From the NCBI RefSeq assembly GCF_002742625.1, contig NZ_PEBF01000001.1:3162001-3226000 (forward strand): a stretch of 64,000 nt of DNA. Direction: 5' to 3'. The notes beneath the pieces were generated by a model. The model searched no databases and had not been told where the DNA came from. It was given only the letters and a program-made list of their open reading frames with translations. The translations under genes and the position numbers were made by a program. Shown in pieces: positions 9,360 through 53,365 of this stretch. Source of the DNA: Caulobacter sp. FWC2. GTDB lineage: Bacteria > Pseudomonadota > Alphaproteobacteria > Caulobacterales > Caulobacteraceae. Positions within the stretch are counted from its first letter, which is position 1; every line of letters starts with the position of its first letter.

Positions 9360-9704
9360 TCATCCGCCGTGATGGCGGTGGCCGCCGTAGCCGACGACTT
9401 GGACTTTCTCCAAGGTCACCAGACCGATCTCGACGGACAGCTCAAGAGCTTCCACGAAGGCTTTCAGCTTGGGCTGAGCATCGACCAATTCGACGATGAG
9501 GTGCTGATCCGGCGCCAAGTCCCTCGCGTGAGCGCCATGGACGATCGCGGTGTCACCGTAGGCCTGCATGACCCGCAAAACCGCAGCGCTCGCGATCTTC
9601 ATCTGGCGCGCTCTAGCGAGCAGCACGTCGTCATAGGCTTGGCCTTGAAATGTGAGCGCAGCGTCGAAATAGATCCGCAGTAGGTGCTGGCTGTCATTGG
9701 TCAT
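9360..9704 (-). CDS. DUF190 domain protein (PII-like fold)
   Basis: A 114-residue DUF190 protein, start LLRIYFDAALTFQG and end GLVTLEKVQVVGYGGH, the usual length for the family. DUF190 proteins adopt a PII/GlnB-like fold and are often encoded beside ion transporters, where they are thought to bind a small ligand or regulate transport; the ligand is unknown. Two more DUF190 proteins occur here, at 13498 (beside the P-type ATPase) and 50417 (in the fluoride operon). This copy and the one at 13498 share the ending L-x-T-F/L-EKV-x-V-x-x-YGGH. Confidence 0.88.
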   Translation of the reverse strand: MTNDSQHLLRIYFDAALTFQGQAYDDVLLARARQMKIASAAVLRVMQAYGDTAIVHGAHARDLAPDQHLIVELVDAQPKLKAFVEALELSVEIGLVTLEKVQVVGYGGHRHHGG

Positions 9705-13497: not shown

Positions 13498-13848
13498 CTA
13501 CTGATGGGGTTCGACGTGATGGCCGCCGTACCGGAGAACCTCGACCTTTTCGAAGGTGATGAGGCCTATGCCCTTGAGATCATCGAGAGACTTCAGGAAA
13601 ACGCGCAAGCGCGCCTCCTCGTCGACAATCTCGATGACGACGGGGAGATTGTCGTTGAAGTCCAACGGCCTAGACTCGTGCATGCGCGCCGACTCGCCAA
13701 ATCCCTTTCGGCCGCGCAGCACGGTCGCGCCGGCTAGCCGCTCCTGTCGAGCGCGCAGCACGATCACATCAATCAAGGCGCGGTCGCCAACCAGGGCGTT
13801 CTCATCGGTGTAGATACGAAGCAGGACAGCTTGCCCGGGGATTTGCAT
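13498..13848 (-). CDS. DUF190 domain protein
   Basis: A 116-residue DUF190 protein (VLLRIYTDENALVGDRALIDVIVLRARQ at the start, GIGLITFEKVEVLRYGGHH near the end). It has a PII-like fold by family. It is placed 17 bp before the P1B ATPase and 22 bp after the DUF411 gene, so it is co-transcribed. A role in sensing or tuning the adjacent metal ATPase is plausible, as DUF190 genes commonly adjoin ion transporters. Confidence 0.88.
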   Translation of the reverse strand: MQIPGQAVLLRIYTDENALVGDRALIDVIVLRARQERLAGATVLRGRKGFGESARMHESRPLDFNDNLPVVIEIVDEEARLRVFLKSLDDLKGIGLITFEKVEVLRYGGHHVEPHQ

Positions 13849-49192: not shown

Positions 49193-49945
49193 TCAGAGCA
49201 CGGGCCGGCCCTCTTCCGCATCTTCTTCCTCCTGCAACGCCCGCCGGTAGAAGTCGCCTCTGCTTTCATTAGCCGGAGGTGCGACGACGCGCGCGATCCA
49301 GTCGCCCGCCTTCGGATGGATCATCTTGCGAGCGACAAGCGTGTCCGGGGCAAGTTCGTAGACGAACAGGTCCCCGGTAGGCGCTTCCAGATTCTCCACG
49401 GCCTGTGGCGACAGCCCATCGAGCACCATCATCAAGGCGCGCAGGCTGTTGCCATGCGCCACGACCAGCACCGTGCGCGACTGCATCAGCCGCGGCAGGA
49501 TCGACCGTAGATAGAACGGAAGCACCCTGGCCGTCGTGTCACGGAGGCTTTCGCCGCCAGGGGGCTGTTCAGCATAGGCGCGCCGCCATCGCGCGACCTT
49601 CGCCTCGCCCCACCGTTCTCGCGCCTGGTCCTTATCAAGACCTGAGAGCTGCCCATAATCGCGCTCGTTCAGCGCGGGATCGCTGAAAGCTTGGACGCCG
49701 TGCAGGTGAAGCTTATCGCGCACAACATCCGCGGATCGGATGGCGCGCTGCAGGCTTGAACTGAAGATATCGTCCACCTTCACATTCGATTGGCGCAAGA
49801 CCTCAGCCGCCGCTTCCGCCTCTGCGACGCCAGCGTCGGTCAGCGGCGGATCATGGAGCCCCGTGAAGCGGTTGGCGGCGTTGTAGGCGCTCTGCCCGTG
49901 GCGCATCAGGATGAGGCGGCGATGCGGATGACTGAACAGGCTCAC
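49193..49945 (-). CDS. gpmA: 2,3-bisphosphoglycerate-dependent phosphoglycerate mutase
   Basis: A 250-residue histidine-phosphatase-fold enzyme with RHGQSAYN, ERDYGQLSGLDKD and VAHGNSLRAL. It interconverts 3- and 2-phosphoglycerate. It is the last gene of the riboswitch-CLC-DUF190-EamA cluster; glycolytic enzymes near enolase are natural fluoride targets, so an extra copy under fluoride control is sensible. Confidence 0.92.
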   Translation of the reverse strand: MSLFSHPHRRLILMRHGQSAYNAANRFTGLHDPPLTDAGVAEAEAAAEVLRQSNVKVDDIFSSSLQRAIRSADVVRDKLHLHGVQAFSDPALNERDYGQLSGLDKDQARERWGEAKVARWRRAYAEQPPGGESLRDTTARVLPFYLRSILPRLMQSRTVLVVAHGNSLRALMMVLDGLSPQAVENLEAPTGDLFVYELAPDTLVARKMIHPKAGDWIARVVAPPANESRGDFYRRALQEEEDAEEGRPVL

Positions 49946-49979
49946 GGCTCGCTCCGATGGCTTGTGGATGGCGGCGGCT

Positions 49980-50420
49980 TCATGCTTTCAACGCGACGAG
50001 GATCGCGCCGCCGCCGATCATGGCGATCCCCAGCCAGTTGCGGCCCGACAGCCGCTCGCCCAGGAAGGCGACTGCAAACAGGGCGACCAGCACCACGCTC
50101 AGCTTGTCGATCGGCGCGACCATCGATGCTGGGCCAAGCTTCAGCGCCCGATAGTAGCAAAGCCATGAGGCGCCCGTGGCGAGGCCGGACAACACCAGGA
50201 AGGCGTAGGTTTTCCCCGTGATCGTGTTGATCGGCTGGAAGGCGCCTGTAGCGGTCACGATCGCGACGAGGACGACGAGGATGACGACTGTCCGGATCAG
50301 GGTCGCATAGTCGGAGTTGACCCCTTCCACGCCGACCTTGCCGAAGATCGCGGTCAGCGCTGCGAAGCTAGCGGAGAGGACCGCCCAGAAGGTCCAGTTG
50401 GCGAGAAGGCTGCGCATCAT
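49980..50420 (-). CDS. Half-size EamA family transporter
   Basis: A 146-residue protein with five membrane segments, one EamA repeat (ASWLCYYRALKLGPASMVAPIDKLSVVLVALFAVAFLGERLSG). Such half-size members dimerise. Its start overlaps the stop of the DUF190 gene (ATGA). Substrate unknown; belongs to the fluoride operon. Confidence 0.88.
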   Translation of the reverse strand: MMRSLLANWTFWAVLSASFAALTAIFGKVGVEGVNSDYATLIRTVVILVVLVAIVTATGAFQPINTITGKTYAFLVLSGLATGASWLCYYRALKLGPASMVAPIDKLSVVLVALFAVAFLGERLSGRNWLGIAMIGGGAILVALKA

Positions 50421-50839
50421 CCGACAGGCTCCTGGCCGGGAATGATCTCACAGGCTTCCACCGCGCTGGCCTCCAGCCGCCATCGCTCCAGATGCTTATA
50501 GATGATGACCTTGTTGGTGAGCATCGCGCCTTGCGCTTTGCAAAACATCTCCAGCTGACCGCGCTCCCCGATCAGCTCCACGCACATCGTCAGTTCTGGA
50601 TTGGCGATCTCGACGCCCTCGTCCTGGATGCGGCCGTGGTTGCTGTATCCGTAGTGCCCATGGTGAGCCACGGCATTCAGAAGGCCCGCGGCTTTCGCGG
50701 CCTGCACGATCTGGCGGTAGAGCTGTGGCCGTCCAGCGAAGAGCGATTTCACGCCACTTCCGCGGCCCCGCTCGCCAGGTTTCATGTAGATGCGGACCAT
50801 GCCGACCTCGTCGGCGCTCATGGTGTGTGAGGAGGTCAT
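50417..50839 (-). CDS. DUF190 domain protein in the fluoride operon
   Basis: A 140-residue protein with DUF190 core [15 protein letters not shown] to [16 protein letters not shown], but a different ending from the two DUF190 copies at 9360 and 13498. PII-like fold. Overlaps start/stop with both CLC and EamA genes. DUF190 is also found with CrcB-type fluoride channels, which supports a fluoride-related role. Confidence 0.85.
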
Positions 50840-52239
50840 GGGCGGGCTTTCTTTTTGTCGGGCTGACTGACAGGACGCGGCTGCCTGGTGGATGCTCGGA
50901 GTTCACGGATCTGTCGCAAGGCGAGATCCGCCGGCGGTTGGGCGGCGGAGGTCTTGGGGACGCCCAGCCTTTGGGAGAGGTAAATCCCCGAATGTCCGCT
51001 GCAGAGGTAAGCGGTGAAGCAGGCGACAGCGATGTAGGCCGTGTGCTCACCGCCGAAGAGCTCGATCCCCATGAGGGTGCAGGCCAGCGGCGTATTGGCC
51101 GCGCCTGCGAAGACCGCCACGAAGCCCAGGGCGGCGAACAGATCGGTCGGGCCGCCGAGCGGGGCCGAGAGCGCATTACCCAGCGCCGCGCCGATGAAGA
51201 ACAACGGCGTCACCTCGCCGCCCTTGAAGCCGGCGCTGAGCGTCACGACCGTGAAGAGAATCTTCAACAGCCAGCTCCAGCTGTCGATCCGGTCGGCGGC
51301 GAAGAAGCCAAGGATTGTCGGGTCGGCCGGGTTGGGAGACCAGACGCCGAGACCCAGGTAGCCCCGGGTCTGGAAGAGGTAAACCATGCCGACGATCGCC
51401 AGGCCGCCCAAGAAGGGGCGCAGCGGGCCGTAGGGCACAAGGCGCTTCAGGGTGGCGCTCAGGCGATGTTGCGCCTCGGAGAACAGCAGGCTGACCAGCC
51501 CGAACGCCACGCCAGCGACCGCGACCTTGGCCAGCAGGACGGGGTCGAGGCCGTACTTGCCGCCAGGCGCCTGGAAGTGAACCGCATACAGGGTGTGCTC
51601 GATGCCCCAGGCATGACACGTCCAATCGCCGATAAGGGCGGCGATGAGGCAAGGGATCAAGGCCTCGTAGTTGACCCGTCCAACAGTGAGCACCTCAAGC
51701 GCAAAGACCGCGCCCGCCACCGGCGTTCCGAACACCGCGCCGAAGCCGGCGGCGATGCCTGCCATCAACAGGATGCGCAGCCTGGCCGCCTCCAGGCGGA
51801 ACAGCTTGGCGAAAGCGCTGGCCAGGCTGCCGCCCAATTGGACCGCCGTGCCTTCGCGTCCGGCCGAACCGCCGAACAGGTGGGTGACGACGGTGGAGAC
51901 CAGAATCAAGGGCGCCATGCGCAAGGGCACGCCGCCGCCTGGTTCGTGGATCTGGTCGACGATCAGGTTGTTGCCCGCTTCGGCTGAGCGGCCTTTCCAG
52001 TGGTAAACCAACCCCACCAGAAAGCCGGCCACCGGCAGGCCGAACAGCAGCCAGGGGTGCGCGAACCGCGCACGGGTGGCCAGATCAAGGCTCCAGAGGA
52101 ACAGGGCGCAGAGCGAGCCGATCGCTGCCGAGGTGGGCGCAAGGATCGCCGCCCACAGAGCCGCAGCCTTCAGGTGAGACAGGCGCGCCTGAACGAACGG
52201 CCGGACATCGGCCAAGGTAAAACGGGGCGGCTTTGACAC
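50836..52239 (-). CDS. eriC: CLC-family anion channel, probable fluoride exporter (EriC-F type)
   Basis: A 467-residue CLC protein. Selectivity-filter motifs are [11 protein letters not shown] (in place of GSGIP) and [15 protein letters not shown] (GREGT in place of GREGP), then [15 protein letters not shown]. These deviations, and the riboswitch upstream, fit the CLC-F fluoride/proton antiporter branch. Start is a GTG at 52239 preceded by GAGGAG. First gene of the operon. Confidence 0.88.
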
Positions 52240-52252
52240 GACTCCTCTTTCT

Positions 52253-52266
52253 CGCGGCAAGCCGCG
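52253..52266 (-). promoter_or_regulatory. Hairpin between riboswitch and CLC start
   Basis: CGCGGC-TT-GCCGCG, a perfect 6-bp stem, sits between the aptamer 3' end and the ribosome site. It may be part of the expression platform. No U-tract follows, so control of translation or of an overlapping RNA fold is more likely than a classic terminator. Confidence 0.4.
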
Positions 52267-52271
52267 CCAAA

Positions 52272-52335
52272 GTAGGAATCATCGGCTCCTTCCTGAGGAG
52301 CGGTTCGGCATGACGCCAGGCGGAAATCCATCGCC
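52272..52335 (-). promoter_or_regulatory. Fluoride riboswitch (crcB motif)
   Basis: In the minus strand GGCGATGGATTTCCGCC is followed by a joiner with CCGAACC, a stem GCTCCT-CAGGA-AGGAGC and then CGATGATTCCTAC. This matches the crcB aptamer element by element: P1 (GGCG/CGCC) with loop AUGGAUUUC, AACCGCU...AGC GAUGAU, and the 3' UCCUAC. The Pseudomonas syringae aptamer shows the same AUGG..UUC loop, AACCGCU and UGAUGAUGCCUAC. Loop GGA can pair with UCC of the 3' strand as the pseudoknot. It lies 33 bp before the CLC start. Confidence 0.9.
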
Positions 52336-52402
52336 AGCGGCGCTTCTAGGTGCGGCTCCTGCGACTGTCAAACGGGGCGACATCAGCCTGCCTCTGACTT
52401 CC

Positions 52403-52735
52403 TCAACGAAGCGCGCGCGGTCCGAGCAAAATGATGCCGGCGCCGACAAGACAGACGACGGCGCCTAGTGTGTCCCAACGGTCGGGCTTCACGCCTTCGA
52501 CGGCCCAAAGCCACGCCAACGATGCACCGATGTAAATCCCGCCATATGCGGCGTAGGCGCGCCCGGCGTTGTCAGCATCTACCAGCGTCAGGAGCCAGGC
52601 GAACAGGGCCAAGGAGACCATGCCGGGCGCGAGCCACCACAGAGGTTTGCCCTCTCGCAGCCACATCCAGAAACTGAAGCAGCCTCCGATCTCCGCCAGG
52701 GCTGCGAACGCATAGACCAAAATCGATTTCGTCAC
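52403..52735 (-). CDS. ynfA: YnfA family inner-membrane protein (paralogue 2)
   Basis: A 110-residue protein starting with GTG at 52735; core [21 protein letters not shown] and [10 protein letters not shown]. Roughly two-thirds identical to the YnfA at 25588. It ends just before the riboswitch and sits immediately inside the right att-like repeat. Upstream frame extension is Arg-rich and unlikely to be coding. Confidence 0.9.
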
Positions 52736-52932
52736 GCCGCCCCCTTCGCCAGCCTCCTCGTAGCGTCTGCGGCGGCGACCTCGCAAATTCGGAAAGCCCT
52801 TCGGATTTCACCGCATCGATTGGGGTCACAGAGGACGCGAAAGCACGAACGAAAACGAAAGAAAACACGAACGTGAGTGCACGGAATTTGCACCGGAGTC
52901 CGTATAAGTCACTGAAAATACACGACTATCTA

Positions 52933-52965
52933 TCCAGTCCATCATCGGCGCGACAGAAAACCTAT
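52933..52965 (+). repeat. Right att-like direct repeat
   Basis: Copy of 28852-28884 (core TCCAGTCCATCATCGGCGC, ending AACCTAT), 28 of 33 bases shared and in the same orientation. It lies in an AT-rich stretch directly before the integrase remnant, the normal place for the attachment site of an integrative element. Confidence 0.6.
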
Positions 52966-53365
52966 GCGGTCGAAATTGCTGCATCTTTTTCGTAGTTTCA
53001 ACGAGTTCGGTCATGCCGAAACGTTCCTAAAATTGCGCACGTTTTCGCCGTTTGTTCCCGTGGTTTCCTTCCTGAGCGCACACACAGAGCACACGAAATT
53101 GGCCACGTTCACGAGACTCCCATCGGGCTCCTGGAGAGCCCAGGTTCGCCGGAAGGGTCGCTATATAGGCGAGACCTTCGCGTACCGCGAGGACGCGCGT
53201 CGATGGGCCACCGAAGCCGAGCGGACCATCGACCAGGGCAAGGCGCCCAAAACCACGAGGATTGCCGACAAAACCACCTTCGGTCATCTGATCGATCTGC
53301 ACATCGATGAGCGGAAGGACGTAACCAAGCCTATCGGCCGGACCGAGCTCGAAGCCCTTAGCTGA
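52964..53365 (+). pseudogene. N-terminal remnant of a site-specific (tyrosine) integrase
   Basis: The frame reads ATFTRLPSGSWRAQVRRKGRYIGETFAYREDARRWATEAE and then KTTFGHLIDLHIDERKDV, which is the arm-binding domain and the start of the core-binding domain of a phage-type integrase. It stops after about 130 codons; the catalytic domain with the RHRY residues is missing. The start is uncertain (residues before LATFTRL are not integrase-like). Confidence 0.75.

Follow-up and report, generated by a model that had tools for sequence, protein, structure and literature searches.

A riboswitch-headed fluoride-exporter operon in Caulobacter sp. FWC2 and a candidate PII-like partner of its CLC-F protein

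A stretch of 64,000 nucleotides (nt) from Caulobacter sp. FWC2 (contig NZ_PEBF01000001.1, positions 3,162,001 to 3,226,000; termed "the window" below) was analyzed computationally for a fluoride riboswitch and the four genes that follow it on the minus strand, which encode a CLC protein, a DUF190 protein, an EamA protein and a phosphoglycerate mutase (GpmA). Operons of this kind are known. The present one is probably a horizontally spread, modular fluoride-resistance operon in which the riboswitch controls the translation of a CLC-F exporter and of the genes coupled to it. A further proposal, advanced tentatively as a real possibility, is that DUF190 is a natural protein-level regulator common to the unrelated CLC-F and CrcB/Fluc exporters. 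Such a PII-like protein would read an adenine-nucleotide or fluoride-metal-nucleotide signal and would open or shut export, and the riboswitch would set its amount.

The riboswitch, the exporter and the expression platform

The window was scanned using cmscan, and the Rfam fluoride riboswitch model RF01734 was matched at 52344-52266(-) over the whole model (positions 1-64 of 64) with 44.1 bits and E 6.1e-9, against a gathering score of 34 bits. This was the sole Rfam match reaching the gathering score within the 64 kb, and the window aptamer was the single RF01734 found in a scan of the whole genome. A preliminary description, composed from the letters of the window, had placed a fluoride aptamer at 52272-52335(-) and had listed its conserved elements. 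All of these were recovered: GGCG (52335-52332), the loop AUGGAUUUC, AACCGCU, GAUGAU, and UCCUAC with its 3' end at 52272. Fluoride control of the operon is thereby supported at the level of sequence. A candidate promoter was discerned by eye at 52371-52343(-), composed of TTGACA (52371-52366), 17 nt and TAGAAG (52348-52343); it was absent from the listing of a consensus promoter scan. A transcript start near 52336 would put the 5' end of the RNA at the aptamer.

The exporter gene occupies 50836-52239(-). The GTG at 52239, which is preceded by AGAGGAG, is a better reading of its start than the TTG (52260) given in the list of open reading frames. The product matched PF00654 with 228.8 bits, and its translation carries GNNLI and GEVTP in addition to the GREGT that had been pointed out in the preliminary description. 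The signatures of CLC-F proteins are GNNLI or GMGLI, GREGT/V, and GEVTP (PMC11139923), and all three are accordingly present. The closest solved structures were those of a fluoride/proton antiporter (6d0j, 6d0k and 6d0n, E 2.4e-59 to 2.7e-58); the next PDB match after this set was ClcA (E 1.3e-5). Assignment to the CLC-F type of F-/H+ antiporter, and hence fluoride export, is supported by these comparisons, and the protein would swap fluoride for protons. The known CLC-F antiporters (6d0j; PMC11139923) share the three signatures, and some of them have a riboswitch upstream. However, no PII-like partner is named for them in the available sections of that review, whereas one adjoins the exporter here and is fused to it in Rhizobiales. 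A separate CrcB gene is found elsewhere in the same genome; both kinds of exporter are reported in about 3% of the strains surveyed (PMC11139923).

The region between the aptamer and the start codon was folded, and a hairpin was obtained at 52237-52283(-). In this hairpin, the aptamer 3' strand GAUGAUUCCUAC pairs with the Shine-Dalgarno sequence and the GUG start, and the apical stem is CGCGG-CUUG-CCGCG. In the fold of the 47-nt segment that runs from GAUGAU through GUG (-24.7 kcal/mol), GAUUCCU paired with AGGAGUC across the ribosome-binding site and start codon. The longer window leader gave the same fold with a modest z score of -1.95 (7 of 200 shuffles were equally good). We take UUCC to be the pseudoknot strand of the aptamer as well; because it serves both, the pseudoknot and the pairing at the ribosome-binding site would be mutually exclusive. 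With fluoride absent, the UUCCU strand would pair with GAGGAG and the GUG start, and CLC translation would be off. Upon the binding of fluoride and Mg, the strand would be held in the pseudoknot, freeing the start and turning CLC-F on. Judged from this structure, the expression platform looks translational and fluoride-ON. A transcription terminator was considered as the platform and rejected, as the hairpin is not followed by a U-run and a terminator scan gave no entry at 52237-52283.

The hairpin recurs in relatives. In all 25 tails that were folded (the window and its relatives), an AGGA or GGGG further downstream is the partner of the aptamer strand, with mean probabilities of 0.50-1.00, and in 21 of them the paired purine-rich element lies immediately 5' of GTG. 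When pairs were counted over the 14 distinct tails, 96.4% of cells were paired, as opposed to 23.6-53.6% in slid controls. Two-sided change was seen in 13 cells (6.2 +/- 2.2 in shuffles), and one outer pair varies among C-G, U-A and U-G. Several features of the same data weigh against the translational switch. Folding was done on the tails in isolation from the remaining aptamer, and four of them (L015, L021, L032 and L054) have the start elsewhere. Pairs with two-sided change (3) and pair types (6) are no more numerous than in shuffles (259 and 426 of 500, respectively, equally high), and 7 of the 10 pairs are invariant. The covariation evidence for the hairpin is mixed. Also, in 13 Rhizobiales loci the hairpin-covered GTG opens a short leader open reading frame rather than CLC, and the question is posed whether this frame encodes a riboswitch-gated coupling peptide. 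These frames encode 18-22 residues and lie outside the CLC frame (L011-L014, L016-L020, L022, L024-L026); in both loci with an annotated CLC (L025 and L026), the leader frame ends at the CLC start. In L029 the covered GTG shares the CLC frame, and in the window, L027, L028, L030 and L052 it serves as the start codon of CLC.

The gene coordinates in the preliminary description, together with its ATGA overlaps of the first three genes, agreed with those found here. CLC and DUF190 overlap at 50839-50836, DUF190 and EamA overlap at 50420-50417, and EamA is separated from GpmA by 34 nt. Through these overlaps and the one short gap, the three downstream genes would follow CLC by translational coupling.

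DUF190 beside and fused to fluoride exporters

The second gene (50417-50839, minus strand) encodes a DUF190 protein (COG1993, PII-like) of 140 residues that matched PF02641 with 35.5 bits (cut-off 23.4). A sequence search of the PDB returned 2dcl as the best match, at an E of only 0.0012. An AlphaFold model was calculated from 14 sequences (predicted local distance difference test 74, predicted template-modeling score 0.64); its secondary-structure order is E-H-E-E-H-E. In a Foldseek search with this model, the top matches were 2dcl (E 1.2e-5), 1o51, CPII and SbtB, with a moderate query template-modeling score of about 0.5. The model thus indicates a PII-like ferredoxin fold. CLC proteins are dimeric, whereas PII proteins are trimeric. 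DUF190 may dock on the exporter, and an adenine nucleotide or a fluoride-metal-nucleotide complex could be its ligand. There are precedents for PII proteins that act on transporters, namely SbtB on SbtA and GlnK on AmtB (PMC8352866), and in those systems, as here, a small PII-fold protein is encoded next to the transporter. They differ in that their transporters are from other families, and the CLC-DUF190 partnership is a putative one. It has also been suggested that DUF190 proteins modulate other membrane channels (PMC3543383).

The recurrence of the gene pair was examined in genomes and plasmids. All 14 loci returned by the DUF190 genome search had CLC alongside. Among plasmids, 37 records contained DUF190 at E up to 1e-5, and 115 contained CLC; 37 of the latter were at 60% identity or greater ("close CLC"), 23 more distant ones were listed, and 55 were not listed. 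The best DUF190 and CLC places were within 150 bp of one another in 31 of the 37 close-CLC records, and two others (NZ_CP017078 and NZ_CP065714) had DUF190 with the best places apart. RF01734 was detected in 24 of 24 scanned CLC-DUF190 loci (L011-L022, L024, L025-L030, L032, L040, L054, L145 and L146, with L023 left out), which had been chosen by similarity to DUF190 or EamA. Two plasmids from Bacteroidota carry the riboswitch, CLC and DUF190, accompanied by CrcB and enolase in one and by Usp and enolase in the other.

In Rhizobiales, CLC and DUF190 are found in a single chain of about 605 residues. A search that took in fusion-length proteins only, and that therefore gives no share among all DUF190 proteins, yielded 231 proteins with a DUF190 part; both Pfam domains were present in 116 of the 120 listed. 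As judged by these sequences, CLC-DUF190 fusions are numerous. The consensus of a 54-fusion alignment retains GNNLI, GREGT and GEVTP, and a model of one fusion comprises CLC helices, a low-confidence linker (446-477) and a PII-like domain. The JGI label on the fusions is "H+/Cl- antiporter ClcA/PII-like signaling protein".

DUF190 also adjoins the other kind of exporter. It was present in 97 of 398 genomes in a phylum-wide sample, from which the 30 top-scoring loci were inspected (most about 3.3 kb, 18 from one family). One or two CrcB genes adjoin DUF190 in eight of these (L092-L097, L100 and L116), and RF01734 was found in four of the eight (L095, L096, L097 and L100).

A number of observations weigh against a dedicated tie between DUF190 and fluoride export. 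In the other 22 of the 30 loci, which are short stretches, there was no match to CLC or CrcB, i.e. DUF190 is not fluoride-only; in L107 and L112, from genomes of another family, it adjoins what by eye is a CRP-like regulator. Two congeners have the riboswitch and CLC, and no DUF190, EamA or GpmA was found within 16 kb. Four of the 37 close-CLC records from plasmids gave no match to DUF190, and among the 23 listed records whose CLC is more distant, 21 do not figure in the DUF190 list. The absence of DUF190 from the congeners and from the four close-CLC records favors a simpler account, in which a riboswitch and CLC-F of the known kind carry passengers, with DUF190, EamA and GpmA co-induced and having no physical or regulatory tie to the exporter. 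The mixed gene set of an Enterobacter operon (PMC5533749) and the EamA genes unlinked to fluoride genes, both described below, point the same way. Nevertheless, DUF190 as a passenger is hard to explain because of the many fusions, the recurrence with the unrelated CrcB, and the occurrence in another phylum, and we consider this account doubtful.

A different possibility is that DUF190 works in solution, sensing or buffering a nucleotide or a fluoride-metal-nucleotide complex rather than acting as a gate, and that fusion only places it at the membrane. Fluoride-metal complexes mimic phosphate, and PDB titles show structures of PII-like relatives in complex with adenine nucleotides; both count in favor of this possibility. 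However, the PII precedents act on transporters (PMC8352866), and the sensor role seems quite unlikely. Our proposal is that DUF190 would gate fluoride exporters.

The preliminary description had held that no role in the fluoride response is known for the DUF190-EamA pair. This held for the open-access literature searched, in which a link between DUF190 and fluoride exporters was not found. The pair is not peculiar to this genome, however: DUF190 recurs with CLC-F and CrcB, and EamA is present in several fluoride loci. Two more DUF190 genes lie in the window at 13537-13824(-) and 9396-9683(-), with no Rfam match near either, and one is located elsewhere in the genome. One Caulobacter DUF190 gene stands among metal-efflux genes in a table of a paper on Zur (PMC4176598). 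A viral source of DUF190 was considered and rejected; no relative was confirmed in viral contigs.

EamA and GpmA

The third gene (49980-50420, minus strand) encodes a single-domain EamA/DMT membrane protein of 146 residues. It contains one PF00892 domain (75.4 bits, cut-off 28.2), and the earlier term "half EamA" was apt. Plasmid fluoride loci with EamA have the arrangements CLC-DUF190-EamA, CLC-DUF190-CrcB-EamA, CrcB-EamA and CrcB-PAP2-EamA, and one has enolase; EamA was also encountered in plasmid loci with no fluoride gene in view. EamA relatives were located in a further 17 genomes from the class, and the surroundings (about 6 kb, less at contig ends) were searched by tblastn with CLC, DUF190, GpmA, CrcB, Eno, Usp, PAP2 and alkaline phosphatase as queries. 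No match was found nearby, and RF01734 reached its gathering score in none of the 16 loci scanned (L074-L089, with L090 left out). These results weigh against a fixed place for EamA in the fluoride module. In an EamA tree, the fluoride label (14 rows) formed no single clade and required five changes, at least two of them forced by starred branches; it was therefore gained, or lost, more than once. The DUF190-EamA pair as a fluoride-specific unit was rejected for EamA, given the 17 sampled genomes without linkage.

It was also considered that EamA might be the key extra of the operon, handling lipid-phosphate carriers together with phosphatases of the PAP2, undecaprenyl-diphosphatase or PgpA type under a fluoride block of phosphatases. 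Such a phosphatase or an alkaline phosphatase is present in 8 of 13 annotated EamA plasmid loci (L027, L034, L036-L040 and L145; none in L025, L026, L029, L033 or L035), about six of which are independent, as L036/L037 and L038/L039 share gene content. There is, further, a weak match of EamA to the model of the ArnE flippase (24.7 bits, cut-off 92). However, the loci were chosen by similarity and form a non-random set without a base rate, the single queries for PAP2 and for alkaline phosphatase had no tblastn match nearby in the 17 other genomes, and the window operon lacks such a phosphatase. This role for EamA is accordingly regarded as very unlikely. In the main reading, EamA would serve as an accessory carrier in the membrane, and its substrate may be a lipid phosphate or a glycolytic acid.

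The last gene (49193-49945, minus strand) encodes a 2,3-bisphosphoglycerate-dependent phosphoglycerate mutase (TIGR01258, 184.5 bits, cut-off 81.7). It is a second copy because the same genome has a housekeeping enzyme of this type (237 residues, 38% identical to the operon GpmA); no match to a cofactor-independent phosphoglycerate mutase was found in that genome. The operon protein is a short form in which an insert of the housekeeping enzyme is absent and a C-terminal tail is added. The motifs RHG, ERDYG and AHGNSLR, which presumably hold the catalytic His, Arg, Glu and His, are kept. The protein fails the equivalog-level model NF002339 (247 vs 316 bits) and, by sequence, appears to be a diverged paralogue. 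On a Bradyrhizobium plasmid, gpmA of the short form is likewise located behind a riboswitch and CrcB, and on a plasmid of Sphingomonas LK11 it accompanies Usp and eno. A single clade of fluoride GpmAs found no support: four label changes were needed for four rows, the same as in shuffles (L144 was labeled fluoride for its Usp and PAP2, though without a riboswitch match).

The preliminary description had suggested a combined export-and-metabolic-bypass module. The portion concerning fluoride control and export stands on the sequence evidence above. Enolase is a main target of fluoride, and "metabolic bypass" is not apt because phosphoglycerate mutase acts upstream of it; a bypass was therefore rejected. 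GpmA would add a second phosphoglycerate mutase, keeping lower glycolysis moving. Both EamA and GpmA recur, but they look like recruited accessories.

Relatives, spread and significance

The fluoride operon of Enterobacter cloacae FRM, ppaC-uspA-eno-gpmA-crcB-orf5249, has been subjected to knock-out and complementation, and its authors state that inhibition of GpmA by fluoride was previously unreported (PMC5533749). Like the window, it features a fluoride riboswitch, an exporter and an extra glycolytic gpmA, and it resides on a genomic island. Unlike the window, its exporter is CrcB rather than CLC-F, it has eno, ppaC and uspA, and the available text of that paper contains no DUF or EamA (PMC5533749). 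A plasmid of Sphingomonas sp. LK11 (L027) resembles the window in having two riboswitch-CLC-DUF190 units, EamA and the short gpmA; it is longer, with phosphatases, an ABC protein, Usp and eno.

A close CLC was found in 3 of 75 genomes of the genus, the window's included. In the two congeners, the riboswitch (39.8 bits each) and CLC occupy another position, and their DNA resembles that of the window over 50953-52350 only. This pattern fits gain by transfer and re-assembly, by which the module may have spread horizontally. The congeners are outside an order-level sample of 200 genomes, in which a scan run with stricter filters gave one RF01734 match above the cut-off, the window's own, and sub-threshold matches of 22-23 bits in two further genomes. 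The riboswitch-linked CLC of one congener (L053:6411-7773(-)) is in more than one frame and looks broken; that of the other (G594) is open. Upstream of the operon, a YnfA/UPF0060 gene (52403-52786) is found on the same strand, 58 nt from the riboswitch match. The stretch 52964-53365(+) has by eye the look of an integrase N-terminus; it has no Pfam or NCBIfam match and was not used.

According to a 2024 review, protein-level regulation could stop the Fluc channel from admitting fluoride, and the same review states that a natural mechanism of this sort is yet to be identified (PMC11139923). The PII-like DUF190, which neighbors both CrcB/Fluc and CLC-F and in Rhizobiales forms one chain with CLC-F, would be a concrete candidate for such a regulator, and one that is testable in E. 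coli. The remainder of the operon is a well-supported addition to the known fluoride-resistance gene sets.

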